Below are positions 4,761 through 38,011 of a stretch of 38,011 nucleotides of DNA, one piece after another (the stretch's first letter is position 1; every line of letters starts with the position of its first letter). The stretch comes from Deltaproteobacteria bacterium. Its GTDB lineage: Bacteria > Desulfobacterota > Syntrophia > Syntrophales > UBA8958. Location of the stretch: positions 1 through 38,011 of the forward strand of contig JAPLJZ010000110.1 of the NCBI GenBank assembly GCA_026388335.1, read 5' to 3'. Both the position numbers and the translations under genes were made by a program. The notes under the pieces were generated by a model. That model did not search any database and was not told the origin of the DNA. It saw only the letters and a program-made list of their open reading frames with translations.

Positions 4761-5381
4761 GAGGGATTATCCGGAATAATCAGATATGGTCTTCTAAGGA
4801 ATACTGTTTGGCGAACTAAACCGCTACGCGGTAGATGCCGAGGTTGGAGCACAGCACGGGTTATTTTAAATTGACAATTCCATTCAATCTGGTGTTGAGT
4901 GGTCCCGGTTGCTGAGTTTTGGCAGCTTATAGAGGTAACACCTCGATTGAAACCCCATAGGATAATCATTTATTCGCGTAGCGGCTAAGTTCTTCATGCG
5001 TCAATCCAAAATTGAATCAATCCCTTGACTTTATAGAATGTTTTGTCTTTAACTCAACTATGGATTGACGCTTACTCGAAATAAAGTATGTCTGGGGGGA
5101 ATCCTAAATGCTCATGGTAGGAGGAAGTTACAAATGCCCCTGATTACCAGAAAAATTACCCTCTATAAATAGCATGTTGCGACCCGTTATCATCAAATAT
5201 TCGTGAAATCCAGTAAATTATTTTTATCAGCGATTTGTAAGCCAGAGAATATATTCACGGATGGGACAGAAGTTGCCTTCTTTGCTTGATATGCCCTCAA
5301 GATCGCATAAGGAAACATAGTCTTTTCTTCTTGGATAAGATATTGGATTTAAGGGACCGAAGTCTATGTGGGCTTTTTTGC
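4761..5381. other. Gene-poor intergenic stretch
   Basis: No convincing gene on either strand. It holds an 11-bp inverted repeat (4998-5008 and 5061-5071, listed separately) and a 12-codon open frame 5134-5172 with a good GGAGGAAG site in front (MPLITRKITLYK), which could be a leader peptide or the stub of a lost gene. Base composition is richer in A+T than the flanking genes. Confidence 0.5.
4998..5071. repeat. 11-bp inverted repeat pair spaced 52 bases
   Basis: GCGTCAATCCA at 4998-5008 is the exact reverse complement of TGGATTGACGC at 5061-5071. The enclosed 52 bases are A+T rich. It could be the ends of a tiny non-autonomous element, a remnant, or paired operator half-sites; I see no flanking target duplication that decides it. 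Confidence 0.5.
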
Positions 5382-6662: not shown

Positions 6663-8240
6663 TCAGGGTGAGGGAGGATATTTTAGGACTTTTTGCGAGT
6701 ACGCCAAGATTATGCCCAGTTTTTTCATCCTGCTTCTCAGCGTATTGGGATTGATTTCCAGCAAAGTGGCGGCGCCGTCCGGGCCATAAATTTTCCCCCC
6801 TGTTTGTTCCAGTGCCAGGCGGATATGCCGGGACATCGCTTCGTCAAGGGTGAGGAGGGGGCTATTCCCCTCCGGAATACTCTCTGCTGCTTCCGAACTT
6901 TTTGGCCACTGGAAATGCTCAAAGGTCAAGAAACGATTCCCACTCGGCCCCCTGCTTCTTATCAACTCGCGTTCTACGAGATTTTCAAGCTCCCGGACAT
7001 TCCCCGGCCAATGATAATCTTTAAGTCGTTCCAACACTTCTGAGGACAAGGGCGGCGGGGTGTGAATTTTCAACTCCTTGGCCTTCTTTTCAATAAAATG
7101 ATGAATCAGGGCAGGGATATCCCCTTGCCGGTGTCGCAAGGGCGGAATCATGACGGGAAAGATGTTGAGCCTGAACCAAAGGTCTTCCCGGAACTTGCCG
7201 GCGCGGACCATCTCTTCCAGGTTTCTATGCGTAGCGGCAATTATTCGAATATCGACGGGAATTGTTTCAGAGCCGCCGACCCGCTCGATTTCCCTGTTAT
7301 GCAATACTCTCAGTAGCCTCACCTGAACAGACAGCGGCAGCTCGGCAACCTCGTCGAGGAAGATACTTCCCTTGTCGGCCCTTTCAAAACGACCTTTCTT
7401 TAGAGCAATGGCGCCGGTAAAGGCGCCGCGTTCATGTCCGAAGAGTTCGCTGTCCATAAGACTCTCCGGGATGGCGCCGCAGTTAACCGTAATCAAAGGC
7501 TTCTCTTTCCGGGGGGAAGCGTAATGAATGGCATTGGCAATTACCTCTTTACCAACCCCGGTCTCTCCTAAAAGCAGGACCGGACTTTTAAGAGACGCCA
7601 CCTGTCTTACCATTTCCATTACTTCCTTGAGACCGTAATCTGCCCCAACGATTTCGTTTTCCTTAATATTCCGAAGCTCGCGGGTGAGTTCCAGATTTTC
7701 ATCATCCACTATCTCCTTCAGTTTGACAACCTCCCGGTAGCGTAGCGCGTTGGATACAGCAATGTTAAAGGGTTCGCGCAATTGGGAGACGAGGCCGGCG
7801 TGGGCGTTTTTGAACATCCCTTTCCCGTCTGCTAAAAAGATTAGAGATCCTAAATGTTTACCTTCGATTACCAGACTGATGTACATCATGGAGGTTGTGG
7901 ACAGATTCACATGGCCGGATAGAATCCAGCCGGCCGGGTGGAGCTCCAGGCGGTCCAGAATCTTGACCTCCTTCCAGGCGCCGACGTCAAAATTTATCTT
8001 ATCGATTGCCTCTTCCGACAAGGGTTTCGAGGTAATAGGCTTTCTTATTCCCGTCAAGTCAACCCTGGCGAGATTGTGGATTAATCCCAAGTTCGGATCG
8101 AAAATGGTCAGGAGCATCTCCGAGGCGGGCAAATAATTCTGAAGATAGGAGAGGCAATTGAACATCGCTTTTTCAATTTCGAGACTGCTGCAGAGCCGTA
8201 AGGTCGCTTGCCGGAAAAAACCGATTCCGCTCATTTTCAT
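6663..8240 (-). CDS. GAF-domain sigma-54-dependent transcriptional activator
   Basis: Seen: an N-terminal GAF-like sensor region (about 1-170), a short coiled linker, an AAA+ domain with Walker A GETGVGKE (225-232), the sigma-54 contact loop GAFTGA (272-277), Walker B GSIFLDE (291-297), and WPGNVRELENL (411-421), then a Fis-type helix-turn-helix (about 470-507). There is no receiver domain, so it should sense a ligand rather than be phosphorylated. Start: the frame opens at 8306, but the ATG at 8240 follows GGGGTGA and gives a 525-residue protein. It is divergent from the acetate-type transporter gene, with a -24-like box and a dyad between them; inference: it regulates that transporter in response to a small molecule. 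Confidence 0.92.
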   Translation of the reverse strand: MKMSGIGFFRQATLRLCSSLEIEKAMFNCLSYLQNYLPASEMLLTIFDPNLGLIHNLARVDLTGIRKPITSKPLSEEAIDKINFDVGAWKEVKILDRLELHPAGWILSGHVNLSTTSMMYISLVIEGKHLGSLIFLADGKGMFKNAHAGLVSQLREPFNIAVSNALRYREVVKLKEIVDDENLELTRELRNIKENEIVGADYGLKEVMEMVRQVASLKSPVLLLGETGVGKEVIANAIHYASPRKEKPLITVNCGAIPESLMDSELFGHERGAFTGAIALKKGRFERADKGSIFLDEVAELPLSVQVRLLRVLHNREIERVGGSETIPVDIRIIAATHRNLEEMVRAGKFREDLWFRLNIFPVMIPPLRHRQGDIPALIHHFIEKKAKELKIHTPPPLSSEVLERLKDYHWPGNVRELENLVERELIRSRGPSGNRFLTFEHFQWPKSSEAAESIPEGNSPLLTLDEAMSRHIRLALEQTGGKIYGPDGAATLLEINPNTLRSRMKKLGIILAYSQKVLKYPPSP

Positions 8241-8309
8241 GAATTTATTCACCCCATTCCTCATGGCCGAATCTTTTACGATTTGGTGATATATAACGCA
8301 GATCATGGC

Positions 8310-8593: not shown

Positions 8594-9322
8594 ATGGCAC
8601 ACGAACATTCTTTTGCAACTCCGGCTCCGGCCGGACTGGCGGCCCTGGCCGTTGCATGTTTTGGATTTGCAGCGGTATTTCTTGGCAAGGTTGATGTCTC
8701 CGGGTTCCCCCTGCTGGCTGCCTGGCTGTTGGGCGGTTGTCTCGTTCAGTACACCACGGCGGTTATGGAACTGAAAGACCACAATATCACCGGCGGCTGC
8801 GTCTTTTTGTTCTTCTCAGCATTCTTCATGCTGGCTGCGGCATTGAGCGTCTTTGCCAAGTGGTATTCCATCAGCTTCATTTTTGGCCCGAAGGCCGTCA
8901 AAGAGGCTATGGATGCCGCCATGGCGGCAGCCGGGGTGGCGGATGTCAAAATGCTTACTCCGGAGCAGCTTGTGGCGGCCAAGGCCGGTATCGGCAAGGC
9001 CGTAGGCGGCATGGTGGGAAAGATGGTCCATGTTGAGGGGTGGTTGTGGATGGCGGGAGCAGGCTTCCTGACGGTTGTGACGCCAGCTTACGCCAAGAGC
9101 ACTCCTTTGATGTTTATCCTCGTTATCCTGGTTGACATCGTTTTATGGTCCATCGTCGGCATGGACAGCGGCTGGTTTGGAGATCCCAAAACACTGAAGC
9201 CCTTTGCGGGGTGGTTGTTGGTCGCCGTCGGCTGGATCGGCATTTATATGGCCGGGGCCATAACATGCAATACCGTGTATGGTAAACCGGTGTTCTTCGT
9301 ACCCAAACCATGGGTGAAGTAA
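8594..9322 (+). CDS. GPR1/FUN34/YaaH (AceTr) family acetate/succinate transporter
   Basis: Seen: 242 residues, opening with TPAPAGLAALAV (9-20), the NPAPLGL-like hallmark of the SatP family, then six predicted membrane helices and GCLVQYTTAVMELK in the TM2/3 region. Known: family members carry acetate, succinate or related acids across the inner membrane. E. coli SatP has 188 residues; this protein carries an extra segment of about 45 residues (97-145, MDAAMAAAG...LTPEQLVAAK...) between membrane segments. Start: ATG at 8594 with GGGAGGG. Inference: acetate uptake or release, controlled by the adjacent sigma-54 activator. Followed by hairpins that probably end the transcript. Confidence 0.9.
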   Translation: MAHEHSFATPAPAGLAALAVACFGFAAVFLGKVDVSGFPLLAAWLLGGCLVQYTTAVMELKDHNITGGCVFLFFSAFFMLAAALSVFAKWYSISFIFGPKAVKEAMDAAMAAAGVADVKMLTPEQLVAAKAGIGKAVGGMVGKMVHVEGWLWMAGAGFLTVVTPAYAKSTPLMFILVILVDIVLWSIVGMDSGWFGDPKTLKPFAGWLLVAVGWIGIYMAGAITCNTVYGKPVFFVPKPWVK

Positions 9323-9395
9323 TGGTGAGGTGAAGAAACTCGACAACTTGTTAAGGACGTATCGGTTTAGTCATCCTTAATTAAGAAAGCAAAAC

Positions 9396-9460
9396 CCGAA
9401 GGTTAAAACTGTGGCCTTCGGAAACCATAGAGACCGGGGAATGGGCGATTCCCCGGTCTC
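9396..9460 (+). terminator. Tandem hairpins after the acetate-type transporter gene
   Basis: First hairpin: CCGAAGG 9396-9402 pairs with CCTTCGG 9415-9421. Second: a perfect 13-bp stem, 9430-9442 with 9448-9460, loop GGGCG. The second is followed by CTCCTT rather than a run of T, so it may act as a weak intrinsic terminator or an mRNA-stabilising end. Between 9461 and 9660 I see no gene. Confidence 0.6.
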
Positions 9461-9660
9461 CTCCTTAAAACCGTCGCGGTTACGAAAAATAGAATCAGTC
9501 TTGTGAAACCAAAGAACACCTGCGCTCCGTATCTCAGACATACAATCTAAAAAATGGGAATGGATGTAACGTAACGGCACCGAGGAGGACGATGTAGAGG
9601 ATATCAACCTTCCTTCCGTCCTGAATCCTACGTATGCCGCTGTCTGCATCGACAAATATG

Positions 9661-9716
9661 TGGATACTTATTATCCATACGGATACCATAAATGGATAAA
9701 TGGTATCCATTTATGG
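9661..9716. promoter_or_regulatory. Array of overlapping TATCCAT inverted repeats, candidate enhancer (UAS)
   Basis: Three inverted repeats share the half-site GGATA/TATCC: TGGATA 9661-9666 with TATCCA 9672-9677; GGATACCAT 9681-9689 with ATGGTATCC 9700-9708; and a perfect 13-bp arm pair 9686-9698 with 9704-9716. The last two are mutually exclusive as hairpins. The array covers about -171 to -116 relative to the sigma-54 start point predicted from 9806-9821, the usual place for an enhancer-binding protein. Confidence 0.7.
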
Positions 9717-9805
9717 CTTGACGTGAATTGTATATGCAATCAGGCCGTTTATCAATGCAAAGTAAACTGTATGAAATTAAGCACATAAAGGGGATCTGCC
9801 ATTTC

Positions 9806-9821
9806 TGGCATAGCCCTTGCT
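9806..9821 (+). promoter_or_regulatory. Sigma-54 (-24/-12) promoter of the ZraP-like/ABC exporter operon
   Basis: CTGGCA at 9805-9810 and TTGCT at 9817-9821 fit the consensus YTGGCACGrNNNTTGCW in exact register; only two bases of the -24 block (T, A for C, G) differ. Predicted start about 9832. Known: E. coli zraP, a gene of the same family as the first gene here, is also sigma-54 dependent. Confidence 0.8.
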
Positions 9822-9862
9822 CAAGATAAAATCAAAACATTAGGAAAAGACGGGTTGAAACC

Positions 9863-10054
9863 ATGAAAAAGGTTGCCGAAACAATAATCAAACTGATTTT
9901 GGTTCTCACAGTAGGAAGAACGATCGGCTACTTTTTACCGCACATTTATTACCAGGGGGGAACCTACCTGGGGACTCTTGCATCCCTATTGTCAAACCCG
10001 TTACCTACTGCCACCGGCCTCATCTACGGATTGTCAAAGGATGGAGAAAAGATC
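9863..10054 (+). other. In-frame upstream extension of the ZraP-like gene
   Basis: The reading frame of the ZraP-like gene is open from an ATG at 9863, 64 codons before the ATG at 10055, and encodes a hydrophobic segment (IIKLILVLTVGRTIGYFL) followed by a neutral stretch. The ribosome site before 9863 is weak. As the second ATG starts a good signal peptide, this part is either a long leader, a second translation start giving a membrane-anchored form, or a short gene fused by loss of its stop. Confidence 0.4.
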
Positions 10055-10576
10055 ATGAAAAGGACACTGGTTATTTTATCGACGCTGCTCCTTTTCACTG
10101 TGGGAACGACAAGCGTACTCCATGCGTGGCGGGGAGGTCCGGAAGGCGGCATGGGTTACGGGAGCGCCCCTTACGGCGCCGTTGTGCTGGCCGATCCCAA
10201 CCTGGATCTGACAACGGAACAGGCCGCCCAGATACACGCTCTGGACGAAAAATACCTGCGGGAGATCAAACCACTCAAGGATCAGCTATACAGCAAGGGC
10301 GTCGAATTACGATCAGCATGGTTGCAAACAACACTGGATCGGATCAATATCAATGACTTGCAAAAGGATGTAACGAACCTGCGCGGTCAGATGTGGGAGA
10401 AAATAACCGCTCACCGCCTGAACGTTCTCAATGTTCTGACTCCCGAACAGCGTGCAAAGGTGCAGGCTTACGATGCAAGACGCGCTTATGGTTCCGGCAA
10501 AGGTATGAGAGGCCGGGGCGGCATGACCGGCTTCCCACCGAATCCCGCAGTTCCCATTACCGGAGGCAATAAATGA
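10055..10576 (+). CDS. Periplasmic Spy/CpxP/ZraP-like heavy-metal-stress protein
   Basis: Seen: from the ATG at 10055 (GGAG site 9 bases upstream) the protein is 173 residues, with a signal peptide (about 1-24, cut near LHA), a Gly/Met-rich stretch, then two LTxxQ-type motifs, DLTTEQAAQIHAL (51-63) and NVLTPEQRAKV (126-136), joined by a long charged helix. The tail is Gly/Arg/Met rich (GMRGRGGM). Known: LTxxQ-motif proteins are periplasmic chaperones or metal-binding sensors (Spy, CpxP, ZraP, CnrX). It is the first gene after the sigma-54 promoter at 9806 and overlaps the FtsX-type gene by ATGA, so chaperone and exporter are one unit. Inference: binds metal or unfolded proteins in the periplasm. 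Confidence 0.85.
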   Translation: MKRTLVILSTLLLFTVGTTSVLHAWRGGPEGGMGYGSAPYGAVVLADPNLDLTTEQAAQIHALDEKYLREIKPLKDQLYSKGVELRSAWLQTTLDRININDLQKDVTNLRGQMWEKITAHRLNVLNVLTPEQRAKVQAYDARRAYGSGKGMRGRGGMTGFPPNPAVPITGGNK

Positions 10577-11823
10577 ATCTGCGTTACGTTTTCAAGGAAC
10601 TTACCCACCAGAAGCGAAGAACGGTCATTTCCGTTCTCGGCCTCTCCATCGGTATCGCGCTCTTTGTCATCCTTAACGCCCTGTCCCTGGCTTATCACGA
10701 GGCGGCACGCGCACCGCTGAAAGAGGTCGGGGCCGACATTACGGTGCAGAGACCCGGAAACGTGCCCCAGGAGCTTGCGGGCGCCGTCTTCCCCTGTTCC
10801 GCCGTGACGATCGACGAAGAAGAAATAGAAGATATCAAAGCGATACCGGGCATCCGGGGCATGGGCAAGGCAGTGCTCCTGTGGATCTTCGACCCGAACC
10901 GGGCCTGGATCGTGCTGGGAATCGAACAGAACAATCCGGTCGGACCGTCGATTCTCAAAAACTTCATCACGGCGGGGTGTTATCTCGAAACCGGGAAGCC
11001 GGAGGTCCTCGTGGAAACGGCATACGCCCGTCAATTCGGCATCCGGCTTGGAGACCATGTTAACGTAGCCGGAAGATCATATCCTGTCGTCGGCCTGATC
11101 GATGCGTCCCACGCTTCCAAAATCGCCGTGGCCAATCTCTACCTGCCACTGGCAGAAGTGCAGTCTATCGCGGCGGCGTCCAAAAATTTGCAGTCCGTTT
11201 CCCCGTTTGCCGGAGGAGATGCCAACCTCCTGTTTATCAGGGCCGATCAGGATCGGATCACAACCGTCGCCGCGTCTGTCAAGGCAATCCTCGGGGGAAA
11301 GGCCACCGTTGCCACCCCGGAGTCATTTCTGAAACTCCTGGGCAGTCTCTTTGCCCTGTCGGACAAATTTACCCTGGCTGCCTCGATTATTGCCATGATT
11401 ATTGCCATCCTCATTGCCTTCAAGACCATGGCGGGAAATGTTGCGGAAAGGGCCAGAGAAATCGGTGTTATGAAGGCTGTGGGCTGGACCCATCGTAACG
11501 TCACGATGCAGCTCTTGGCGGAATCGGTCATCCAGGGTTTCGCCGCTGGGCTCCTGGGGCTCCTGATTGCCCAGGCGGCCGCCGTCGCCCTGGGTTTCAT
11601 GACCGTCAACATCCCCATTCCCTGGGAGATGAGCCCGACCCCCCATTTTCTCCCCGGCGGCGGCGACCCGCTCTTTAAAACCCTGCGCCTTCCCGTTCAT
11701 ATCCCCTGGTCCCTGGCGGCCTTTGCCCTGCTCCTCTCCGTTATCATCGGGGGCCTGACAGGGGCGCTTTTAGGCAGACACATCTCCAAAATCAAACCTT
11801 CGGAGGTTTTAAGGCATGAATAA
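10573..11823 (+). CDS. FtsX/MacB-type ABC transporter permease (first of two)
   Basis: Seen: 416 residues, one membrane helix near the N-terminus (about 18-38), a large periplasmic domain of about 220 residues with GADITVQRPGNVP, then three C-terminal helices, with REIGVMKAVGWTHRNV before the second of these, the FtsX-type signature. Known: type VII (MacB/LolCE-like) permeases work mechanically with a LolD-type ATPase to extrude molecules from the periplasm or pull lipoproteins. It overlaps the ZraP-like gene (ATGA) and the ATPase gene by 8 bases. It is a close paralogue of the permease at 12899 (HxxxRTxxxxLGxxxGIALFVxxNAxSxAY in both), suggesting a heterodimer. Confidence 0.92.
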   Translation: MNLRYVFKELTHQKRRTVISVLGLSIGIALFVILNALSLAYHEAARAPLKEVGADITVQRPGNVPQELAGAVFPCSAVTIDEEEIEDIKAIPGIRGMGKAVLLWIFDPNRAWIVLGIEQNNPVGPSILKNFITAGCYLETGKPEVLVETAYARQFGIRLGDHVNVAGRSYPVVGLIDASHASKIAVANLYLPLAEVQSIAAASKNLQSVSPFAGGDANLLFIRADQDRITTVAASVKAILGGKATVATPESFLKLLGSLFALSDKFTLAASIIAMIIAILIAFKTMAGNVAERAREIGVMKAVGWTHRNVTMQLLAESVIQGFAAGLLGLLIAQAAAVALGFMTVNIPIPWEMSPTPHFLPGGGDPLFKTLRLPVHIPWSLAAFALLLSVIIGGLTGALLGRHISKIKPSEVLRHE

Positions 11824-12487
11824 TAAATCGGATATTCTGGTTGGTATCGATCTGGCCAAAACATACGGCGAGCTTGCTGTCGTCAAGGGGGTCTCTCTGG
11901 CCATCCGGGAGGGCGAGTTCGTTTCCCTGGTCGGCAAATCAGGCTGCGGCAAGACGACGCTACTTTCCATTTTGTCAGGATTGGAACATCCCACCCGTGG
12001 GCAGGCATTCCTCAACGGTAAGGAGATCACCGGCGCCTCGGAGGACGAGCTCGCTCTCTTCCGCCGGGAGAACGTCGGCTTTATCTTCCAGTCCTTCAAT
12101 CTCATTCCTACCCTCTCGGCTTGGGAAAATGTGGCCCTGCCACTCTTTCCCATCCAAATGTCCGAAGCGGAGCGCCGGCGGCGGGCAACGGAACTCCTCG
12201 ACCAGATGGAACTGGCACACCGCCTGGAACATCTGCCGGCCGCCCTCTCCGGGGGGGAGAAACAGCGGGTCGCTATTGCCCGCGCCCTGATCAATCACCC
12301 CAAGATCGTCTTCGCCGACGAACCGACGGGCAATCTGGATACGGCCACGGGCGACGCCATCATGGCGATCCTAAACGGGCTACACCGGAAGCAGGGCATG
12401 ACGATCCTGATGGTCACCCATGAATCGGAACTGGCTAAAACGGCCGATCGCGTCCTGCACATGCAGGACGGGGAGGTGTTGTCATGA
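11816..12487 (+). CDS. LolD/MacB-type ABC transporter ATPase
   Basis: Seen: 223 residues with Walker A GKSGCGKTT (40-48), Q-loop FQSFNLIP (91-98), signature LSGGEKQRVAIARAL (144-158), Walker B IVFADEPTGNLD (164-175) and the H-loop in MVTHE. These fit the LolD/FtsE/MacB ATPase group exactly. Known: it powers the FtsX-type permeases. It lies between two permease genes, overlapping the first by 8 bases and the thioredoxin-like gene by ATGA, so stoichiometry of one ATPase gene to two permease genes is built into the operon. Confidence 0.95.
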   Translation: MNNKSDILVGIDLAKTYGELAVVKGVSLAIREGEFVSLVGKSGCGKTTLLSILSGLEHPTRGQAFLNGKEITGASEDELALFRRENVGFIFQSFNLIPTLSAWENVALPLFPIQMSEAERRRRATELLDQMELAHRLEHLPAALSGGEKQRVAIARALINHPKIVFADEPTGNLDTATGDAIMAILNGLHRKQGMTILMVTHESELAKTADRVLHMQDGEVLS

Positions 12488-12891
12488 AAAAAATGATCTT
12501 ATGCGGCATGATCATGTCACTCTTTTTTTGCCTTCCCACAATCATCCCGGCCGCTCCAAGCGTTTCCGTGGAAATTCTCTACATGAGCCACGGCCCGCTG
12601 ATGCCGACGGTGAAAGAGATCCAGAATCTCTGCAATCGTTACGGCAAGAAGATTACGGTATCATGGCATGACTTTGAAACCCCGGACGGGGAAGCGTTCA
12701 TGGCGCGTAAGGGCATCCGCCAGCATGTCCCCCTGATTATCTGGATCAACGGTAAGTCCACTCTGAAGGTAAAGGGGAAAGATGTTCCCTTTGTCGGCTT
12801 TCCGACCGGATCGGGACCCGCTTTCTTTCAGGGAAAATGGACTATGGACGATCTGCGCGGGGCGTTGGATCTGGCTACCGGTCAGAAGTGA
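12484..12891 (+). CDS. Exported thioredoxin-fold protein lacking CxxC
   Basis: Seen: 135 residues with a signal peptide (about 1-24, MILCGMIMSLFFCLPTIIPA), then a short alpha/beta protein (VSVEILYMSHGPLMPTVKEIQNLCNRYG...QHVPLIIWINGK). The V-P-x-I-x-W-I-N pattern resembles the cis-Pro strand of the thioredoxin fold, but there is no CxxC; position of the active site is occupied by SHGP. Known: redox-dead thioredoxin-like proteins serve as substrate adaptors. It sits inside the exporter operon between the ATPase and second permease genes, which argues for a role in the same machine. Confidence in exported small protein is high, in fold only moderate. Confidence 0.7.
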   Translation: MKKMILCGMIMSLFFCLPTIIPAAPSVSVEILYMSHGPLMPTVKEIQNLCNRYGKKITVSWHDFETPDGEAFMARKGIRQHVPLIIWINGKSTLKVKGKDVPFVGFPTGSGPAFFQGKWTMDDLRGALDLATGQK

Positions 12892-12898
12892 GGTCATT

Positions 12899-14137
12899 AT
12901 GTATCATGCTTATATCTTGAAGGAACTTCGCCATCATCGTCACCGGACGCTGGTCAACATCCTGGGCATTGCCGTGGGCATTGCCCTCTTTGTTTCCATC
13001 AACGCCGTTTCGACGGCCTACCAAGAGGCAGTGAGCCTCCCCTTCAAAAATCTGGGGGCGGATCTCGTGGTCCAGCGGGCGGAAAAGCGCGCCGTGAACT
13101 CATCGCAGGCCGGTCCCTCCATGCGGGGGATACGTCTTCCTTTTTCAAATCAGCTTCTTTCCTCTGACGATCTCGATAAGCTCCGCATCTTTCCCGGTAT
13201 CGACGCCATGGCCGGATCGCTCCTCCTCTGGAATTTCGACCGAGGCGGTTTCCGGACGATCATGGGGGTAGATATGTCTCAGCCGAGTTTGGGGCCGGTA
13301 CATATTAAAGAATGGCTGGCCAAGGGTCGTTTTCCGGAGAAAAAGGGTGAGGTTGTCCTGGAAAAGCACTACGCCAAGTTTAACAACACGCAATTGGGCG
13401 ACCCGTTTACCATCGGCAGCCGGTCTTTTAGCGTCGTGGGGCTTCTGGAGATCCGGGAAGGCGCCCAGATTGCTTCGACAAACATCTACTTGCCTTTGGC
13501 CGATGCCCAGGACCTGATGGGAAATGAATCCAAAATTGTGAATCTCGTTTATCTCCGCTTGCAGAACCCGTCCCGCCTGAACCAGACGAAAACAGAGATT
13601 ATGCAGTCCATGCCGGGAATTTCCGTGGCCAGTTCCGACGCCATTCTCGAAGTAATGGGAGGTGTTTCCCGGATTTCCGACCAATTTTCACTGGTCGTCT
13701 CCCTGGTTGCCCTGGCAGGAGCCATCTTTCTGATCATTAAAACCATGCTGGGAAACCTTGTGGAACGATCCCGCGAAATCGGCATTCTGAAGGCCGTGGG
13801 CTGGACCGGCGGCGATGTGCAGAAGCAACTTATGGGAGAGGTTTTTCTTCAATCCGCGGTGGGAGGGATTGTGGGTGTCGCCGCCGGATATCTCATCTCT
13901 TATCTTCTGGGTTATCTTGCTATTCCGGTCACAACCCCTTGGGAGGTAAACCTTTTGCCCGCCTTTGCCAAAGAGGCCGGGGCTGCCGCCCAGACGATCC
14001 GCCTACCCGTCAGCTTCTCTGTCGGCTTGACCGCCGCCGCCCTGGCCCTTTCCCTGCTTGCAGGCGGCCTGGCAAGTTATTTCATGGGGAGGCGCATGGC
14101 AAAGATGAAACCAGCCGATATCCTACGACGATTGTAG
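12899..14137 (+). CDS. FtsX/MacB-type ABC transporter permease (second of two)
   Basis: Seen: 412 residues with the same layout as the permease at 10573: N-terminal helix, periplasmic domain (GADLVVQRAEKRAVNSSQAG onward), then REIGILKAVGWTGGDVQKQL and three C-terminal helices. Start: an in-frame ATG at 12782 exists inside the preceding gene, but the ATG at 12899, after GTGAGGTC and 7 bases past the stop of the thioredoxin-like gene, gives a normal N-terminus that aligns with its paralogue. Inference: pairs with the first permease and the ATPase at 11816. Known: LolC/LolE are such a pair in lipoprotein release, though no lipoprotein-specific feature is visible here. Confidence 0.92.
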   Translation: MYHAYILKELRHHRHRTLVNILGIAVGIALFVSINAVSTAYQEAVSLPFKNLGADLVVQRAEKRAVNSSQAGPSMRGIRLPFSNQLLSSDDLDKLRIFPGIDAMAGSLLLWNFDRGGFRTIMGVDMSQPSLGPVHIKEWLAKGRFPEKKGEVVLEKHYAKFNNTQLGDPFTIGSRSFSVVGLLEIREGAQIASTNIYLPLADAQDLMGNESKIVNLVYLRLQNPSRLNQTKTEIMQSMPGISVASSDAILEVMGGVSRISDQFSLVVSLVALAGAIFLIIKTMLGNLVERSREIGILKAVGWTGGDVQKQLMGEVFLQSAVGGIVGVAAGYLISYLLGYLAIPVTTPWEVNLLPAFAKEAGAAAQTIRLPVSFSVGLTAAALALSLLAGGLASYFMGRRMAKMKPADILRRL

Positions 14138-14146
14138 ATAAGGATT

Positions 14147-14227
14147 ATGAAAGCGGAATCTTTGATTTTGTGGATGATGGGCGTTATAATCGCATCCGTG
14201 ATGATTGAGGTGGAGTTCCGTCTGTGA
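14147..14227 (+). CDS. Possible 26-residue single-span membrane peptide
   Basis: Seen: ATG at 14147, 9 bases after the permease stop, opens a 26-codon frame ending at TGA 14225: MKAESLILWMMGVIIASVMI then EVEFRL. It is one hydrophobic helix with charged ends, the pattern of small membrane regulators. The ribosome site AAGGA is only 2-3 bases from the ATG, which is unusually close. It would be the last gene of the exporter operon. Chance occurrence cannot be excluded; conservation next to homologous operons would decide. Confidence 0.35.
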   Translation: MKAESLILWMMGVIIASVMIEVEFRL

Positions 14228-14243
14228 TGGCCGGATGCTTTAC

Positions 14244-17117
14244 CTACGGGCGATCCAACTCTTTTCGTATGGCCAGACCGATTTGTTCCATGATGTAGGG
14301 TTTACGGACATAGGCCCCGGCGCCTAACTCCTGTGTCTGCCTAACCCGTTCCGTTTCCGAAAAACCGCTTACCACTATGGCCCGCTGTTGCGGATTGATC
14401 TCCAACACGCGCCGATAGGTAGCCAATCCGTCCATACCCGGTTCCATGATCATATCCAGCACCAGCAGCTTAACCGAGTGACTTTCCAGAAAGGCCACGG
14501 CCTCTTCCCCACTGGCGACGGTTTGTACGTTATAGCCCAGGTCGGTCAGGATACTTGCGGCTAATTCCCGTTGCTCCTGAACGTCATCCACCACAAGGAT
14601 CGCTTCCCCGGTGCCGGCATAAGCAGCAAGCGGCACTGCGGGCTGCTCTTTCCGTACGTCTTCGCGGGTCACCGGGAAGAAAAGGATAAATTGCGTCCCC
14701 TTTCCTTCCTCGCTTTGCACATCAATGAAACCGTTATGATCCTTTACGGCGCCCCAGACCACGGCTAATCCTAATCCCGTCCCGCTCTGGCCCATAACCT
14801 TCCTCGTGTAGAAAGGTTCAAAAATCTTCCCCATATTCGTTGCGGGTATCCCCTGGCCGTTGTCGGATACGGTTAGGACCACGTAATCTCCTTCCTTGGC
14901 AACCTCGTAACCGTGGATGGGCTTGTCAAGATACCGATTTTCCGTACGGATCATCACGATGCCCCCGTCGGTAATGGCTTCGGCGGCATTGGTAACCAGG
15001 TTCATCAAGGTTTTGCCCAGATGGACCGGGGAGCCCTTGATGTTCAACAGCCTCGGATCGAGATCCAGCCGGAAATCGATATGGGGATGTAAGGAGGCCA
15101 GCTTCTCAAAATCAGGAGTCTTCAAATACTCGGCAATCATGTTATTGATATTGACCACTTCCGAGACCGTCACCCCCCTCCGGGCCAGTGTCAGGAGATC
15201 CTGAATGATGGCAGCGCCCCGTTCACTGGACTTCATGATATTGGCGACATACTTGCGCAAGGGATCTTCCGCGGGAATTTTTGACAACATCAGTTCCGAA
15301 TAGCCCACCAGGACCCCCAGCACATTATTCAGGTCATGGGCCACGCCTCCGGCCAGGGTTCCCAGGGCCTCCATCCTTTCCGCCCGCCGCAGCCGTACTT
15401 CCAGTCCCTGGCGTTCCTCATCGTTACGCTTGCGTTCGGTGACATCGCGGACAGTTGTTACAAAGCTGGCAATAGCTGGATTATGCAAGAGATTCTTGCC
15501 GAAACCTTCCATGATAAGTTCCGTACCGTCTTTATGCCTGATACGGAAACTGTTCGGAATAGCAACATCTTTTGTGAGCAGCGCCTTCTTAAAATCACTG
15601 AATGCTCTGGGAAGGTCTTCAGGTATAAACAGATCGAAAGTGCTTGTTCCGATCACCTCGCTTGGACTGTAGCCGACTATTCGTTCAACGGAGGGACTCA
15701 CATAGGTTATTATACCCCGCTCATCCACAGTAAAGATAATGTCTGATGCATTCTGGATGATTTCCCGAAAATATTCCTCGCTTTCTTTTATTTTATGATA
15801 AGCGAGCGCATTATTGATGCTGATGCCGATCTGCGGGGCGATGCCCATCAAAAGACTCATCTCCGTTTGGCTGAGAGGCTTCTTTGATTGCACATTATCC
15901 ACCATCAGGACCCCCAGGGATTCCCCTTTATAAACAATAGGAACGCAGATGAAAGACTGTGAGCCCATGGCACGAACGAAATCGAGACTTTTCGGTGAAA
16001 GATCATTCTCAATGTCAGAGACGTCATTTACTAAGAAAGGTTTCTGTTTTCTGAATGCCTCCACCGCCACACCCTTTGACAGAGGATTATCAAGATGGAA
16101 TTTTATATTTTTCAGGTAATCTTCATCTTTCGGATTGTATCCGTAGCTGACCGTATAAACGAGACAGTTTTTTTGCTTGTCGGCAAGCATGATCATGCCC
16201 CGGTCGAAATCCAGTCTTTTCTCCAGTGATTCCATAATGGATACGAGCAGTTTGTCAACGTCCAGGATCATGGAGGCGGCTTGACCGATCTCCTGGATCA
16301 GGAGGGCCTCATTATATCGTTTATTGATCTGGTCCAGGAGACGGTCCGCCGCATCCCCCTGGTTCTGGATGTTGGCAAGCAAATCCTTTTTTTCCAAATG
16401 TTCGGTATACAGCGTCACGCCCATCGCGGTGACAATATACAATAAGACCAGCGTGTCCCAATACATGGGATTTAGCATTCCTAAGGATATCAAACAGAGA
16501 ATAAAGCCTAAGATAAAAGAATAATTACGGATCCGTTTCCAGAAAAAGACGCGTGTTTTTTCCCAGGTGATGAGATAGAGGCAGCAGTCGCCGCCCTTGT
16601 GAATGCAGACAGGATGTTCAATAATCGCAAATTCATTGGTGGAAAGTCTCGCCAGGGCCTCAAATCCACCCAGCCGGTTGTGACACTGATAGGGCTTCTC
16701 AACCACCCCCGGCTGCAATACGGCCTTCACCTCGATCTTATCCGCCCCGATGGCTTTGGTCTTCAATACCGCCGCCCGGCTGAGACGGGCGTTGATTTTT
16801 TCCAGAACGCTATAAGCTGTCGCCGGATTAATGAACCCCAGCATATACTGTCCCAAAGCCCCTGAGGCGCGGGACGTGACGGAAAAACGCCCTACTTTCC
16901 TGGAAATGTCTGCATCTTGGGTCGTCTTCGCAAGCATTGTGTGAAAACGATCAACCTGCCTTTGAGTCAGCCAATGCCCCTCGTCATCAAGCTGATAAGT
17001 CTCAATATCCGCATAGTTTAAAAGGGGGGCGATATCGATATCCGGAAGGTACCTCTTCAGATACTCCACATAGCTTTTGAGGATGCGGCTGTTATATAGG
17101 GGGGTGTCATCCGTCAT
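14244..17117 (-). CDS. Hybrid sensor histidine kinase (N-terminal sensor, 2 TM, GAF, PAS, HisKA, HATPase, receiver)
   Basis: Seen: 957 residues. Residues 1-190 form a soluble region I cannot name with certainty, ending HPVCIHKGGDCCLYLITW, reminiscent of 4-vinyl-reductase-like small-molecule domains. Then two hydrophobic helices (about 199-216 and 219-236), GAF (about 270-440), PAS (about 445-563, ending RDVTERK), HisKA with H594 in GGVAHDLNN, HATPase with DNGQGIP and GTGLGLAV, and a C-terminal receiver with D888 in LLVLDMI. It starts inside the stop of the PilZ protein gene (overlap ATGA), so the two are coupled. Known: hybrid kinases relay phosphate through an Hpt protein; none is encoded nearby. 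The receiver coding region is duplicated as a 116-bp remnant at 21592-21707. Confidence 0.93.
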   Translation of the reverse strand: MTDDTPLYNSRILKSYVEYLKRYLPDIDIAPLLNYADIETYQLDDEGHWLTQRQVDRFHTMLAKTTQDADISRKVGRFSVTSRASGALGQYMLGFINPATAYSVLEKINARLSRAAVLKTKAIGADKIEVKAVLQPGVVEKPYQCHNRLGGFEALARLSTNEFAIIEHPVCIHKGGDCCLYLITWEKTRVFFWKRIRNYSFILGFILCLISLGMLNPMYWDTLVLLYIVTAMGVTLYTEHLEKKDLLANIQNQGDAADRLLDQINKRYNEALLIQEIGQAASMILDVDKLLVSIMESLEKRLDFDRGMIMLADKQKNCLVYTVSYGYNPKDEDYLKNIKFHLDNPLSKGVAVEAFRKQKPFLVNDVSDIENDLSPKSLDFVRAMGSQSFICVPIVYKGESLGVLMVDNVQSKKPLSQTEMSLLMGIAPQIGISINNALAYHKIKESEEYFREIIQNASDIIFTVDERGIITYVSPSVERIVGYSPSEVIGTSTFDLFIPEDLPRAFSDFKKALLTKDVAIPNSFRIRHKDGTELIMEGFGKNLLHNPAIASFVTTVRDVTERKRNDEERQGLEVRLRRAERMEALGTLAGGVAHDLNNVLGVLVGYSELMLSKIPAEDPLRKYVANIMKSSERGAAIIQDLLTLARRGVTVSEVVNINNMIAEYLKTPDFEKLASLHPHIDFRLDLDPRLLNIKGSPVHLGKTLMNLVTNAAEAITDGGIVMIRTENRYLDKPIHGYEVAKEGDYVVLTVSDNGQGIPATNMGKIFEPFYTRKVMGQSGTGLGLAVVWGAVKDHNGFIDVQSEEGKGTQFILFFPVTREDVRKEQPAVPLAAYAGTGEAILVVDDVQEQRELAASILTDLGYNVQTVASGEEAVAFLESHSVKLLVLDMIMEPGMDGLATYRRVLEINPQQRAIVVSGFSETERVRQTQELGAGAYVRKPYIMEQIGLAIRKELDRP
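14345..14460. repeat. Source copy of a 116-bp dispersed repeat (receiver-domain segment)
   Basis: This part of the hybrid kinase gene, encoding LDMIMEPGMDGLATYRRVLE onward, matches 21592-21707 with about 10 mismatches over 116 bases and no gaps in my alignment. The copy here is in an intact gene, so it is the likely source. Confidence 0.8.
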
Positions 17118-34017: not shown

Positions 34018-34333
34018 TCGGATCCTTGATCAGGCATCCTCCTTGGCACGGCAGGAGGGAACGTCAATGATTCTTGTGCTGAGAAAATGTGATTTCGCCG
34101 GACAAGCTCTTGGTTTGTCATCCTTCTGCACCCATCTTTAAGCATCAACTCTTCAGATATTCTAAGATCAAGTCATTTAACACCTAAGATGACTTGATCT
34201 TAGAATATGACCAGCGCTCAAACTTGCGCGGCTTTGCCCTGGAAAAGTACCTGCGGTTATGTTATGAATCTGCCCGCTTTAAAAAAGGAATGTTGCCTTA
34301 AGAAAAGCATATATGAGTGCTGGAGAGCCCGTC
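34018..34333. other. Intergenic region with a long hairpin
   Basis: About 316 bases. It holds the 20-bp perfect inverted repeat at 34157-34208 (listed separately) and a weak sigma-54-like match at 34240-34255. No gene is convincing. Confidence 0.5.
34157..34208. repeat. Perfect 20-bp inverted repeat, long hairpin
   Basis: Arms 34157-34176 and 34189-34208 are exact reverse complements with a 12-base loop. CTAAGAT/ATCTTAG also recurs so that an internal smaller dyad overlaps the second arm. There is no T-tract, so it is not a standard terminator; a REP-like element or a transcript-stabilising end of the S11 peptidase mRNA are options. Confidence 0.75.
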
Positions 34334-35554
34334 ATGCCTGGGGAAGATATTGCCAAGCTGAAGATCGAAAAGTCGGAAAAGATCGTTAAGCCCAGCCGAT
34401 ACAAAAAGAAGCCCCTTGTCATCGCGGCTATTATCCTGCTGCTTTTGGTAACGGCCGGTCTTTACTTTGGCGGCATCATTGCCCCGGCCATAGCTGTAGA
34501 TGTAACGACCGTTTCCCAAGTCTACCCCTCGCAGTCCATATCCATGTTGAACGCCAGCGGTTACATTGTCGCTCAACGGAAGGCCGCCGTGGCCTCCAAG
34601 GTGACGGGCCGTCTGGTGGCGCTGATGGTAGAGGAAGGAGGCAGGGTCAAGGAGGGGCAGGTGATTGCCCGGATGGAGAATGTGGATGTGACCGCAGCCA
34701 GAGACCAGGCGGCAGCCAATCTGAATACGGTTCGGGCCACCCTTGAGCAGACCAAGGCGGAAAGGGACATGGCGTCGCTGGAGTATACCCGTTACAAAAA
34801 ACTGTTTGCCAGTAATTTTGTTGCCAAGTCCGATTACGACGTGGCCGAGACACGCTACAAGCGGGCCGTTGAAGGGGTAAAGGGGGCGGAAGCCACCGTT
34901 CGGGCGGGAAGCGCCGCCTTGCGGAACGCCGAGGCTTCTCTCGACTACACCCTGGTACGGGCCCCCTTCGATGCCGTTGTATTGACCAAAAATGCCGACG
35001 TTGGCGACATCGTAACCCCCATGGGTTCTGCCGCCAATGCGAAGGCCGCCGTCGTTACCATTGCCGATATGAAATCCCTGCAAGTCGAGGCCGATGTCTC
35101 GGAAACGAGCATTGCCTCCATCCGGGTCGGCCAGCCCTGTGATATCCAACTTGATGCACTCCCGAACATGCGGTTTCAGGGGGAGGTCTATACTGTCGTG
35201 CCAACTGTTGACCGCAGCAAGGCCACCGTTTTGGTCAAGGTTCGCTTTCTCGACAAGGACCCTCGCATGCTGCCGGACATGAGCGCCAAGGTTTCCTTTC
35301 TTTCACGGAGGCTCGAACCCGAGGAGCTGAAGCCTCGTCTTGCCGTCAACCAATCCGCCTTGATCAGCAGGGGCAATAAGACATTTGTTTTTCTCCTGCA
35401 AGGGAACCGTGTCAAGGAAACACCCGTCCAGGTTGGTCCTAAACTGGGAGATATGACGGAGATCGTCTCAGGCCTTAAGCCGGGAGACCGTGCCGTCATA
35501 AAGCCGCCGAAGGGATTGAAGGATGGAGCGAGGATCAAAGTCGCCGAACGATAA
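34334..35554 (+). CDS. MacA/HlyD-type periplasmic adaptor (membrane fusion protein)
   Basis: Seen: 406 residues from the ATG at 34334, one membrane helix (about 27-47), then a lipoyl-like half (SGYIVAQRKAAVASKVTGRL), a coiled coil (about 110-200), the second lipoyl half (LVRAPFDAVVLTKNADVGDIV) and a beta-barrel region. Known: adaptor linking inner-membrane ABC exporters to an outer-membrane channel. Start: the frame opens at 34313, but the ATG at 34334 has GGAGAG 6 bases upstream. It overlaps the next gene by 32 bases. Inference: with the three downstream genes it forms a MacAB-like exporter; the outer-membrane channel is not in the window. Confidence 0.92.
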   Translation: MPGEDIAKLKIEKSEKIVKPSRYKKKPLVIAAIILLLLVTAGLYFGGIIAPAIAVDVTTVSQVYPSQSISMLNASGYIVAQRKAAVASKVTGRLVALMVEEGGRVKEGQVIARMENVDVTAARDQAAANLNTVRATLEQTKAERDMASLEYTRYKKLFASNFVAKSDYDVAETRYKRAVEGVKGAEATVRAGSAALRNAEASLDYTLVRAPFDAVVLTKNADVGDIVTPMGSAANAKAAVVTIADMKSLQVEADVSETSIASIRVGQPCDIQLDALPNMRFQGEVYTVVPTVDRSKATVLVKVRFLDKDPRMLPDMSAKVSFLSRRLEPEELKPRLAVNQSALISRGNKTFVFLLQGNRVKETPVQVGPKLGDMTEIVSGLKPGDRAVIKPPKGLKDGARIKVAER

Positions 35555-36266
35555 GCAAAACATCGTAGAGATAAGAAATCTTTACAAGTCCTATCATCGG
35601 GGAAGTCTTGTCGTCCCGGTCTTGTACGATATTACGTTCGACATCGCCGCGGGGGAATTCCTGGCCCTCATGGGGCCTTCCGGTTCGGGGAAAACGACCC
35701 TCCTGAACCTCCTTGCCGGCATCGACAAGGCTGATAAGGGGAGCATCCGGGTAGGCGATATGGATATCACTACCCTTTCGGAAACGGAGCTCGCCCATTG
35801 GCGGGCCAATCACGTCGGTTTCATCTTTCAGTTCTATAACCTGATCCCGGTCCTGAAGGCGATTGAAAATGTGGAACTGCCGCTTCATTTGACATCGCTG
35901 TCCAAAAGAGAAAGACGGGAACATAGCGAGACGGCCCTGCGCATGGTAGGTCTGGAACACCGGATGGATCATTATCCCAAGGAGCTGTCCGGCGGCGAAC
36001 AACAGCGGGTGGCCATTGCCCGCGCCATTGTCACCGATCCCACCATCCTCGTTGCCGATGAGCCTACGGGTGATCTCGACCGCGTATCGGCCGAGGAAAT
36101 CCTGGCGATGATGGAACGCCTCAACGCGGAAATGGGTAAGACCATCATCATGGTAACCCATGACCCACGGGCGGCGCAACATGCCAAGATCCTCCGGCAT
36201 CTGGAAAAGGGATACCTGAATGATACACTGAAGGGCGCCCATGACGATTCTCAAAATCCTCTTTAG
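35523..36266 (+). CDS. LolD/MacB-type ABC transporter ATPase (second system)
   Basis: Seen: 247 residues with Walker A GPSGSGKTT (51-59), Q-loop IFQFYNLIP (101-109), signature LSGGEQQRVAIARAI (155-169), Walker B ILVADEPTGDLD (175-186) and H-loop MVTHDPR. Overlaps the adaptor gene by 32 bases and the next permease gene by 26 bases, so it is tightly packed in the operon. Inference: powers the two permeases that follow. Confidence 0.94.
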   Translation: MERGSKSPNDKQNIVEIRNLYKSYHRGSLVVPVLYDITFDIAAGEFLALMGPSGSGKTTLLNLLAGIDKADKGSIRVGDMDITTLSETELAHWRANHVGFIFQFYNLIPVLKAIENVELPLHLTSLSKRERREHSETALRMVGLEHRMDHYPKELSGGEQQRVAIARAIVTDPTILVADEPTGDLDRVSAEEILAMMERLNAEMGKTIIMVTHDPRAAQHAKILRHLEKGYLNDTLKGAHDDSQNPL

Positions 36267-37398
36267 AAATGCCTTTCACAATAAGCTGCGCAGCGGCCTG
36301 ACGATTCTGGGCATCGCCGTAGCCATTCTGGCCTTCGGCCTCCTGCGGACGGTGATCAGCTCCTGGTATGCCGGTGTCGAGGCCGCTTCGACGTCCCGCC
36401 TTGTCACCAGAAACGCCATCTCCATCATCTTTACGCTTCCCCTCTCCTATAACGAGAAAATCCGCCAGCACGAAGGGGTGAAGATGGTGTCCTACGGCAA
36501 CTGGTTCGGCGGTATTTACATTGATGAAAAAAACTTCTTTCCCAACTTCTGCGTCGAGCCCCGGACCTACCTGGAAATCTATCCGGAATTCGTGCTTGGC
36601 CCCGCGGAAAAAAAGGCGTTCCTTGCCGACAGGAAAGGGTTTGTGGCCGGCAGAAAGCTGGCGGCGAAGTACGGCTGGAAGATTGGCGACACGGTTACCC
36701 TCAAGGGAACAATCTACCCGGGGAACTGGGATTTCGTCCTCCGGGGCATCTATAAAGGCAGGGATGATACGACGGATGAAACGCAGTTCTATTTCCATTG
36801 GGATTACCTAAATGAAACGATCAAAAAGGCATCAGCCCAGCGGGCCGATCAGGTAGGATTCTATATGATTGCCGTCACCAGGCCCGATCTGGCGGCGGAT
36901 GTGGCCCTGGCCGTGGACAAAACCTTCAAAAACTCCCTGGCCGAGACATTGACGGAGACGGAGAAGGCCTTTAATCAGGGATTTATCGCCATGAGCGGCG
37001 CCATCGTCACGGCCATCCAGATGGTATCCTTCGTCGTCATCATCATTATCATGGCCGTTGTCGCCAATACCATGGCCATGACCACGCGGGAACGAATCGG
37101 CGATTATGCGATCATGAAAACCCTGGGATTCGGCGGCCGGGATATCACGGTCCTGATCTTCGGGGAATCCCTCGTGATTACCCTGACCGGCTGCTTCACC
37201 GGCATGATCCTCACGTTTCCCGCGGCAGCGGCCTTTGGCCAGGCGCTGGCCACCTTTTTTCCAGTCTTCATTGTTTCCCCGGAAACGCTTTACCTCGATG
37301 TTTTGGCAGCCCTCCTCATCGGCTGCCTGGCGGCGGTCATTCCGACCCGCCAGGCGATCCGTATCGGCATTGCCGATGGGCTGCGGAGGATCGGCTGA
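36241..37398 (+). CDS. FtsX/MacB-type ABC permease (second system, first of two)
   Basis: Seen: 385 residues, N-terminal membrane helix (about 18-38), a periplasmic domain of about 220 residues, and three C-terminal helices. The FtsX motif between them reads GDYAIMKTLGFGGRDI. Different in length and sequence from the permeases at 10573 and 12899. Overlaps the ATPase gene by 26 bases and the next gene by one base (TGATG). Inference: half of a heteromeric permease with the gene that follows. Confidence 0.9.
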   Translation: MTILKILFRNAFHNKLRSGLTILGIAVAILAFGLLRTVISSWYAGVEAASTSRLVTRNAISIIFTLPLSYNEKIRQHEGVKMVSYGNWFGGIYIDEKNFFPNFCVEPRTYLEIYPEFVLGPAEKKAFLADRKGFVAGRKLAAKYGWKIGDTVTLKGTIYPGNWDFVLRGIYKGRDDTTDETQFYFHWDYLNETIKKASAQRADQVGFYMIAVTRPDLAADVALAVDKTFKNSLAETLTETEKAFNQGFIAMSGAIVTAIQMVSFVVIIIIMAVVANTMAMTTRERIGDYAIMKTLGFGGRDITVLIFGESLVITLTGCFTGMILTFPAAAAFGQALATFFPVFIVSPETLYLDVLAALLIGCLAAVIPTRQAIRIGIADGLRRIG

Positions 37399-38011
37399 TG
37401 GCGGTTCCCCTTTCCTACAGTTTGCGAAACCTCTGGAAGCGCAGATTGACGACGATCCTTACGGTTTCCGGCATGGCCCTCGTCGTCTTCGTATTCGCCG
37501 CCATCCTGATGATGGCCGAGGGCTTGGAGAAGACCCTCGTGGAGACGGGTTCTTATGACAATGCAGTGGTGTTCCGCAAAGGCTCCACCTCGGAGGTTAT
37601 GAGCAGCATTGAGCGTAATCAGGCTTCCATTGTGGAAATGCTTCCCCAGGTGGCCATTGATCAGAACGGGCGACGACTCCTGGCCAAGGAGGTCGTTGTC
37701 CTCATTTCCCTGCAAAAGCGGGGTGATGAGAAGGCATCGGCCCATTCCAACGTCGTCGTCCGCGGCGTGGAGGAGAGTTCCATGCCCTTGCGGCCCCAGG
37801 TAAAGCTGGTCTCAGGTCGCATGTTCAGAATGGGCTCCTCGGAGATTATCGTGGGAAACAGCATCGCCAAAGGATTCCAAGGAGTCGGCCTACAGGGCGC
37901 CCTGAACTGGGGGATGAGGACCTGGACGGTCGTGGGTGTTTTCGATGCCGGCAATACGGGATTCAGTTCGGAGATATGGGGCGATGTGGATCAGGTGATG
38001 CAGGCCTTCCG
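37398..38011 (+). CDS. FtsX/MacB-type ABC permease, N-terminal part (cut by window edge)
   Basis: Seen: ATG at 37398 overlaps the preceding stop (TGATG) and opens a frame of 204 codons that runs off the right edge with no stop. It begins MAVPLSYSLRNLWKRRLTTI, then a membrane helix (about 18-40), then a periplasmic region with VVVRGVEESSMPLRPQVKLV and GSSEIIVGNSIAKGF, the MacB-type fold. Inference: second permease of the exporter encoded from 34334. Confidence 0.87.
   Translation, partial: MAVPLSYSLRNLWKRRLTTILTVSGMALVVFVFAAILMMAEGLEKTLVETGSYDNAVVFRKGSTSEVMSSIERNQASIVEMLPQVAIDQNGRRLLAKEVVVLISLQKRGDEKASAHSNVVVRGVEESSMPLRPQVKLVSGRMFRMGSSEIIVGNSIAKGFQGVGLQGALNWGMRTWTVVGVFDAGNTGFSSEIWGDVDQVMQAF

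Follow-up and report, generated by a model that had tools for sequence, protein, structure and literature searches.

A recurring operator points to a probable ZraR-type sigma-54 regulon for envelope stress in an uncultured Syntrophus-like bacterium

Genes for a ZraP-like protein and a MacB-type ABC exporter stand together in the window, as we call the whole analysed stretch of 38,011 nucleotides (contig C193), and are preceded by an apparent sigma-54 promoter. Which protein controls this promoter, and which other genes answer to the same switch? A sequence-only reading of the window had described the promoter, added an enhancer built of inverted repeats together with a comparison to zraP of Escherichia coli, and called the controlling protein unknown. 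Comparative evidence upholds the promoter, the enhancer and the comparison. The last statement can be amended: a ZraR homologue, whose gene lies on contig C2 of this genome, is very probably the controller. We consider it highly probable, from the comparisons described below, that positions 9661-9821 are the control region of a ZraR-type sigma-54 envelope-stress regulon. An orphan promoter thereby receives a proposed controller, and eight promoters of an uncultured Syntrophus-like bacterium are outlined as one regulon.

Promoter, operator array and operon of the window

The control region and the operon comprise the following features:

9661..9677, plus strand: putative enhancer site 1, a 17-bp dyad TGGATACTTATTATCCA (motif count, alignment, matrix score)
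9680..9686, plus strand: middle half-site CGGATAC, 2 bp after site 1 (alignment)
9693..9709, plus strand: putative enhancer site 2, a 17-bp dyad TGGATAAATGGTATCCA, 32 bp from site 1
9806..9821, plus strand: sigma-54 -24/-12 promoter TGGCATAGCCCTTGCT, 96 bp after site 2, GG-N10-GC in register
9863..10576, plus strand: ZraP/CpxP-like protein (Pfam Metal_resist, LTXXQ), its N-terminus bearing a hydrophobic extension (about 64 residues)
10573..11823, plus strand: MacB/FtsX-type ABC exporter permease 1 (domain search)
11816..12487, plus strand: ABC exporter ATPase, LolD/MacB-like (domain search, NCBIfam)
12484..12891, plus strand: small protein of 135 amino acids, probably exported, no family found (Pfam, NCBIfam, PDB)
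12782..14137, plus strand: MacB/FtsX-type ABC exporter permease 2, true start probably near 12900

Sigma-54 boxes follow the consensus TGGCAC-N5-TTGC, which was used as match criterion. The -24/-12 element claimed in exact register at 9806-9821 is indeed there: by inspection of the window, TGGCATAGCCCTTGCT is of this type and has the GG-N10-GC spacing. We regard it as a good sigma-54 box, and its position predicts a transcription start near 9832. Taken alone, such a box is weakly suggestive, because the pattern is just about twice as common in the genome (79 matches) as its reversed control (41 matches); the box by itself was for this reason rejected as proof.

The gene for sigma-54, rpoN, was not found in the window's own assembly (G000). 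The same search found it in 18 of 21 genomes, including all seven congeners, and missed it also in G015 and G019, the latter of which nevertheless has operators. An assembly gap is likely, because contig C68 (L257, G000:C68:1-4860, 4,860 bp) ends with its match to the rpoN neighbourhood of G002, about 0.8 kb before the expected place of rpoN. With this contig end and rpoN in all seven congeners, true loss of the gene is thought unlikely.

All three inverted repeats built on GGATA/TATCC that had been noted upstream of the box are present at 9661-9716, well above chance: TGGATA-cttat-TATCCA (9661-9677), GGATACCAT/ATGGTATCC (arms 9681-9689 and 9700-9708) and CCATAAATGGATA-aatgg-TATCCATTTATGG (9686-9716). 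Sites of the form TGGATA-N5-TATCCA with up to two mismatches number 171 in the genome, against 58 for the control. Perfect ones are just three in 4.06 Mb, and two of these lie in the window, 32 bp apart. The array is better described as five half-sites, namely those of site 1, one middle half-site and those of site 2; the repeats look overlapping since pairing is also possible for the middle half-site and for the sequences flanking site 2. Close relatives conserve the arrangement: G002 and G006 keep the -24/-12 box identical, and both dyads are recognisable in the two genomes. They start at unchanged distances from the box (113 and 145 bp), while the half-sites of site 1 differ by one or two letters. 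Lack of conservation in close relatives, named in the sequence-only reading as a refutation, was thus not observed. We take promoter and repeats as confirmed; together they make up a single element that recurs.

Pfam assigns Metal_resist and LTXXQ to the zraP-like proteins of both the window and C2. Among NCBIfam models, that of ZraP gives the C2 protein 28 of 200 bits and does not list the window protein; the CpxP-family model fits better (48 bits for C2 and 34 for the window, of 148), still far below its cut-off. The N-terminal extension of the window protein (9863-10054) is of equal length in G002 and G006; in G006 translation cannot start at the signal-peptide methionine, because the internal methionine is threonine there. 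The 135-amino-acid protein, for which there was no match in Pfam or NCBIfam and none convincing in PDB, accompanies the operon in G002, G006 and the second exporter copy on contig C90. The gene that follows permease 2 (14244-17117) has the opposite orientation.

Two further observations concern the surroundings of the operon. A second exporter cluster at 34313-38009 (adaptor, ATPase and two permeases, named by eye) showed no enhancer upstream in the scan. Upstream of the operon, a sigma-54 activator gene at 6663-8306 (minus strand) is divergent from a gene of the GPR1/FUN34/YaaH type (acetate-transporter-like) at 8594-9322 (plus strand).

The same operator at eight promoters of the genome

Twelve regions of the own genome and three regions of relatives, all around motif or promoter matches, were scanned along with the window. 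The same composite operator was found upstream of sigma-54 boxes at eight places of the own genome: on C2, C20, C59 (two), C90 (two), C127 and C193, the last being the window. Searched against the whole own genome at E<1e-3, an operator profile returned these eight and one duplicate, nothing more. Their consensus layout consists of site 1 (a 17-bp dyad close to TGGATACTTATTATSCA), N2, a TGGATAC half-site, N6 or N7, and site 2 (a 17-bp dyad). A leave-one-out matrix, trained each time on the other seven operators after removal of one linker base from the three with 33-bp spacing to allow alignment, gave every one of the eight a higher score than any of the 505,140 other positions, counted on both strands of 253 kb from the own genome. 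The window operator obtained 47.3 bits, a score reached by none of the 505,140 positions outside the known sites.

The gene sets behind the eight promoters, which gene order and strand suggest to be single operons, are:

C2: zraP-like gene
C20: outer-membrane efflux protein, HlyD-type adaptor, AcrB-type RND pump
C59a: two M16 peptidases among other genes
C59b: zraP-like gene, outer-membrane factor and adaptor (identified by their likeness to the C20 proteins), RND pump
C90a: zraP-like gene, 302-amino-acid protein without family, ECF-like sigma-70 factor, zf-HC2 (anti-sigma-like) protein, second zraP-like gene, second copy of the window's ABC exporter
C90b: TPR protein and a 181-amino-acid protein (zraP-like by eye; no Pfam match)
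C127: glycine-zipper protein and others
C193: the window operon

One envelope-stress sensor, a relative of E. coli ZraSR, most likely commands all eight of these matching switches.

Contig C90 offers two side observations. The second exporter copy (L058, G000:C90:5001-25000, at about 9149-15900), whose permease 1 is 95% identical and which has its own enhancer copy upstream, lies after the genes for the ECF-like sigma factor and the zf-HC2 anti-sigma-like protein, so that a cascade from sigma-54 to ECF is possible. At L059 (G000:C90:25001-45000, 5119-5265) the whole operator is tandemly duplicated with a 97-bp period, 99 bp being exact; the duplication is either real or an assembly artefact.

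Recurrence, spacing and the candidate regulator

The recurrence, geometry, conservation and genetic linkage of the operator were observed directly. A profile of the operator only was searched in 60 genomes of the order Syntrophales, the own genome included. At E<1e-3 the operator was present in 36 of them, and 64 places were examined; this number excludes the duplicated operator (C90:30216), and matches above E=1e-3 were uncounted, five of them (to 1.1e-2) being inspected. A sigma-54 box scoring at least 0.85 lies downstream of 56 of the 64 operators, against 6 of 64 in antisense (median scores 0.96 and 0.71), where ten of the 64 are training operators, eight of them chosen together with their box and the others known to have one. 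When the training operators are removed, 46 of 54 have a downstream box, compared with 6 of 54 in antisense; for operators outside the genus the two counts become 32 of 39 and 6 of 39. Eight of the 64 have no box of at least 0.85.

Class-wide, the operator was found at E<=1e-3 in 94 of 155 genomes, every genome listed being from the same order. Fifteen loci of the class, the best-scoring ones from genomes outside the 60, have gaps between site 2 and box of 84-87 or 96-98 bp throughout, and a box of at least 0.85 in 13 cases. Of 395 genomes sampled across the phylum, 12 have the operator at E<=1e-4, and six of these 12 do not belong to the order. Five of these six operators adjoin ZraS/ZraR-like genes and have a sigma-54 box (0.86-0.96) 92-100 bp downstream; the sixth, in G440, has neither such neighbours nor a box.

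The putative binding sites are laid out with unusual regularity. Between dyad centres the distance is 32 bp in 51 operators of the 64, 33 bp in nine and 31 bp in four; outside the order, four of the six operators have 42-44 bp between dyads, not 32. Six or more of the seven letters of TGGATAC are matched by the middle half-site of 52 operators among the 64, or 43 among the 54 that remain without the training set; both counts are biased upwards, since the profile contains this half-site. Operators of G017, G033 and G047, found with the dyads alone, have CGGATAC or TGTATAC at the same middle place, site 1 being poor in two of them.

In the 56 operators with a good box, the gap that separates this box from site 2 measures 65, 75-76, 82-89 or 93-98 bp, while the values 77-81 and 90-92 bp do not occur; the clusters are about one helical turn apart and mostly near 85 or 96 bp. 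Seven weaker boxes (0.78-0.84) lie at 76, 82, 85, 85, 86, 87 and 96 bp, and the eighth operator, in G057, has no box (score 0.44). When the set is de-duplicated to 33 operators (one per genus and gene class), the trough at 77-81 and 90-92 bp stays empty (p=0.00065 against a smoothed null), a statistic weakened by relatedness and by the post hoc choice of the trough, which was picked once the gaps were known. The best period of the gaps is broad, about 10.5-12 bp. Exceptions are a gap of 78 bp, inside the trough, at a sub-threshold operator of G035 with a box, and gaps of 92 and 100 bp outside the order. We read the clustering of the gaps as helical phasing.

Close relatives of permease 1 (at least 75% identity) occur in 4 of the 60 genomes. 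Among 20 orthologous exporter operons of GTDB genomes (assemblies named Syntrophus sp., Syntrophaceae, other deltaproteobacterial and a few otherwise; a 21st locus, L209, 28% identical, was excluded), operator and promoter occur together in five, two of which, in G006 and G002, were used for training. All five have a box scoring 0.96, separated from the operator by 96 or 85 bp. We rejected, on this count, the idea that the exporter operon is universally controlled in this way. The pattern indicates control that is kept in those members of the genus that have the operon and is patchy beyond, because the other 15 operons show no operator and no box of at least 0.9 within 4.5 kb or the shorter flank.

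The genes beside the operators point to the regulator. On C2, the operator sits between the zraP-like gene and divergent genes for a kinase (PAS, HisKA and HATPase domains) and a regulator (receiver, sigma-54 AAA+ domain with GAFTGA, Fis-type HTH). Alignment and leave-one-out scores show that this zraP/zraSR-like locus shares its operator with the window operon, which is not adjacent to the C2 regulator gene. Half of the 64 operators (32) stand before a zraP-like gene and have, on their other side, the divergent gene of a ZraS-like kinase; two more are beside such a kinase gene (34 of 64). Among 24 enhancer-binding proteins of the own genome, out of about 26 activators (two, on C38 and C88, were outside the comparison; four weak matches were excluded), the best match of E. 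coli ZraR is the C2 regulator with 56.6% identity and 508 bits, the next having 378 bits. Because of this match and of the linkage of operators to zraP-like/ZraS-like loci, the C2 ZraR homologue is very probably the activator of the window operon. Its top PDB match is ZraR (1ojl). It is best called ZraR-type and is not certified as a ZraR equivalog, because ZraR and ZraS, though the top NCBIfam models of the C2 regulator and kinase, give 582 and 431 bits, below the equivalog cut-offs of 760 and 479.

Operator and regulator also tend to occur in the same genomes. With presence of the regulator judged by hand (about 60% identity or more to the C2 protein, or a near-identical fragment; G058, at 54%, was called absent), 33 of the 60 genomes have both, 13 the regulator alone, three the operator alone and 11 neither (Fisher p=0.0013). 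The operators without a counted regulator are in G050, G058 and G027, the last with its kinase gene at the end of a contig. Weaker operators beside the kinase gene are present in five (G015, G039, G017, G033 and G047) of the 13 genomes that have the regulator alone. Six others (G008, G010, G016, G022, G034 and G049) show no dyad pair, zraP-like gene or sigma-54 box beside it, and in the remaining two, G030 and G048, the kinase side is unreadable. A second paralogue in G033 is accompanied by a weak zraP-like match (20 bits) and a poor box.

Three other explanations have to be weighed against control by the C2 regulator. A paralogue sharing the TGGATA motif might control the window operon together with the C2 protein or by itself, and the genome has enough candidates: about 26 sigma-54 activators, several of them about 42-50% identical to the C2 regulator or its relatives. 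We nevertheless consider this improbable. Divergent from operators, 32 activator genes were found (at two of these loci the operator is above the E cut-off). For 31 of the 32, among which the C2 gene itself is counted, the best match is the C2 regulator, and no paralogue is the best match of any, with the sole exception of the window's own activator at its own operator. This last protein might also bind the enhancer in place of the C2 regulator. It had been stated that no receiver-type activator is encoded in the window, which is correct; yet the gene at 6663-8306, 1.4 kb upstream, codes for a sigma-54 activator without detected receiver and with the sigma-54 interaction domain. Control by this activator, as by any other of a type different from C2, seems very improbable and is unsupported by the comparison: G006 keeps operator and promoter with no activator-like gene detected within 5 kb upstream (in G002, 1.6 kb is readable), the 31 of 32 divergent activators are of the C2 type, and the 6663-8306 gene is itself divergent from the acetate-transporter-like gene (8594-9322).

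The repeats might also not be protein sites at all and instead act as a cruciform or RNA structure with two mutually exclusive hairpins. The window has perfect arms for it, with 13 pairs around 9701, and of the earlier claim that overlapping repeats pair one at a time, the overlap stands. A conserved switch does not, and we rejected the hairpin reading as extremely improbable: the longer hairpin has 13 of 13 pairs in G002 and only 10 of 13 in G006, where its arms are broken. Long arms are likewise not evident by eye in the other own-genome operators, half-sites and spacing are conserved while the N5 centres of site 2 vary, and the sites lie upstream of the promoter, hence outside its transcript.

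Proposed mechanism and relation to known systems

The mechanism that we infer, with its signal, binding, looping and direction of regulation, would run as follows. A periplasmic or envelope signal would be sensed by the ZraS-like kinase encoded on C2, which would phosphorylate the ZraR-like regulator encoded on the same contig. Regulator dimers would bind both 17-bp dyads, aided by the middle half-site, and assemble into an AAA+ hexamer. By a loop of about 96 bp that keeps to one face of the helix, the hexamer would reach RNA polymerase-sigma54 at 9806-9821 and open the promoter. Transcription from about 9832 would then supply a ZraP-like chaperone, periplasmic or membrane-anchored, and the MacB-type ABC exporter.

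A broader generalization is offered tentatively, and we hold it with somewhat less than even confidence. The ZraR enhancer of Syntrophales, and of some further members of the phylum, may be a rigid scaffold in which five half-sites follow each other as dyad, N2, half-site, N6-7 and dyad. It would stand in helical register with its promoter, with spacings that change mostly in whole turns. The lone middle half-site may place a third dimer, so that the DNA would set assembly and orientation of the activator hexamer. A small Zra switch may in this way have grown into a genome-wide regulon of efflux, chaperone and protease genes which also drives an ECF sigma factor. The operators present a natural series of enhancer-promoter spacings, in steps of about one helical turn, for testing how the layout of DNA affects assembly and looping of sigma-54 activators.

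No paper on this Syntrophus/Syntrophales ZraR-type regulon was found in the literature, among the matches listed. As far as the available parts of the literature show, its nearest relative is DVU3381 of Desulfovibrio vulgaris, a sigma-54 response regulator annotated 'Envelope stress response', whose targets are DVU3384 and its own operon (PMC4641369) and whose motif was tested by EMSA (PMC3333781). The likeness is one of description, and DVU3381 has as listed targets three genes in two units, compared to eight promoters here. For a multi-site enhancer as scaffold of a higher-order AAA+ oligomer, E. coli NorR is a precedent (PMC2941729); NorR senses NO via a GAF domain and uses three enhancer sites, in place of the two dyads and one half-site found here.

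E. coli ZraR binds the spacer between zraP and zraSR (PMC8249747), and zinc and envelope stress are known from E. coli work as signals of the Zra system (PMC7657598, PMC8249747). As at the core locus described here, zraP is divergent from zraSR in E. coli and has a sigma-54 box. Two 17-bp dyads with N5 centres can be read in the E. coli zraP sequence by our own analysis; they are 31 bp apart, compared to 32 bp here, in both cases about three helical turns. Half-sites differ: those of E. coli, read as YGAGTM, form GAGT-type dyads, whereas TGGATA is used here, which means that the binding sequence of E. coli ZraR does not recur. The nearer dyad of E. coli is 41 bp from the promoter, while gaps here are mostly about 85 or 96 bp, and the middle half-site, present here, was not seen in the E. 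coli zraP sequence. A single target of E. coli ZraR was obtained by in vitro screening, against eight operator-bearing promoters here; the same paper, in the part available, quotes ChIP-seq with 25 further targets (PMC8249747), and ChIP-exo confirmed zraSR and zraP and added mgtA (PMC7657598). A regulon extending beyond zraPSR is not new in itself, because of these further targets from ChIP-seq and ChIP-exo work. What differs from E. coli, as far as the sequence comparison tells, is the operator common to eight promoters, and its geometry. The system described here thus appears to be of a known kind, a ZraR/sigma-54 regulon, which is set apart by its larger size and by a phased enhancer of five half-sites.
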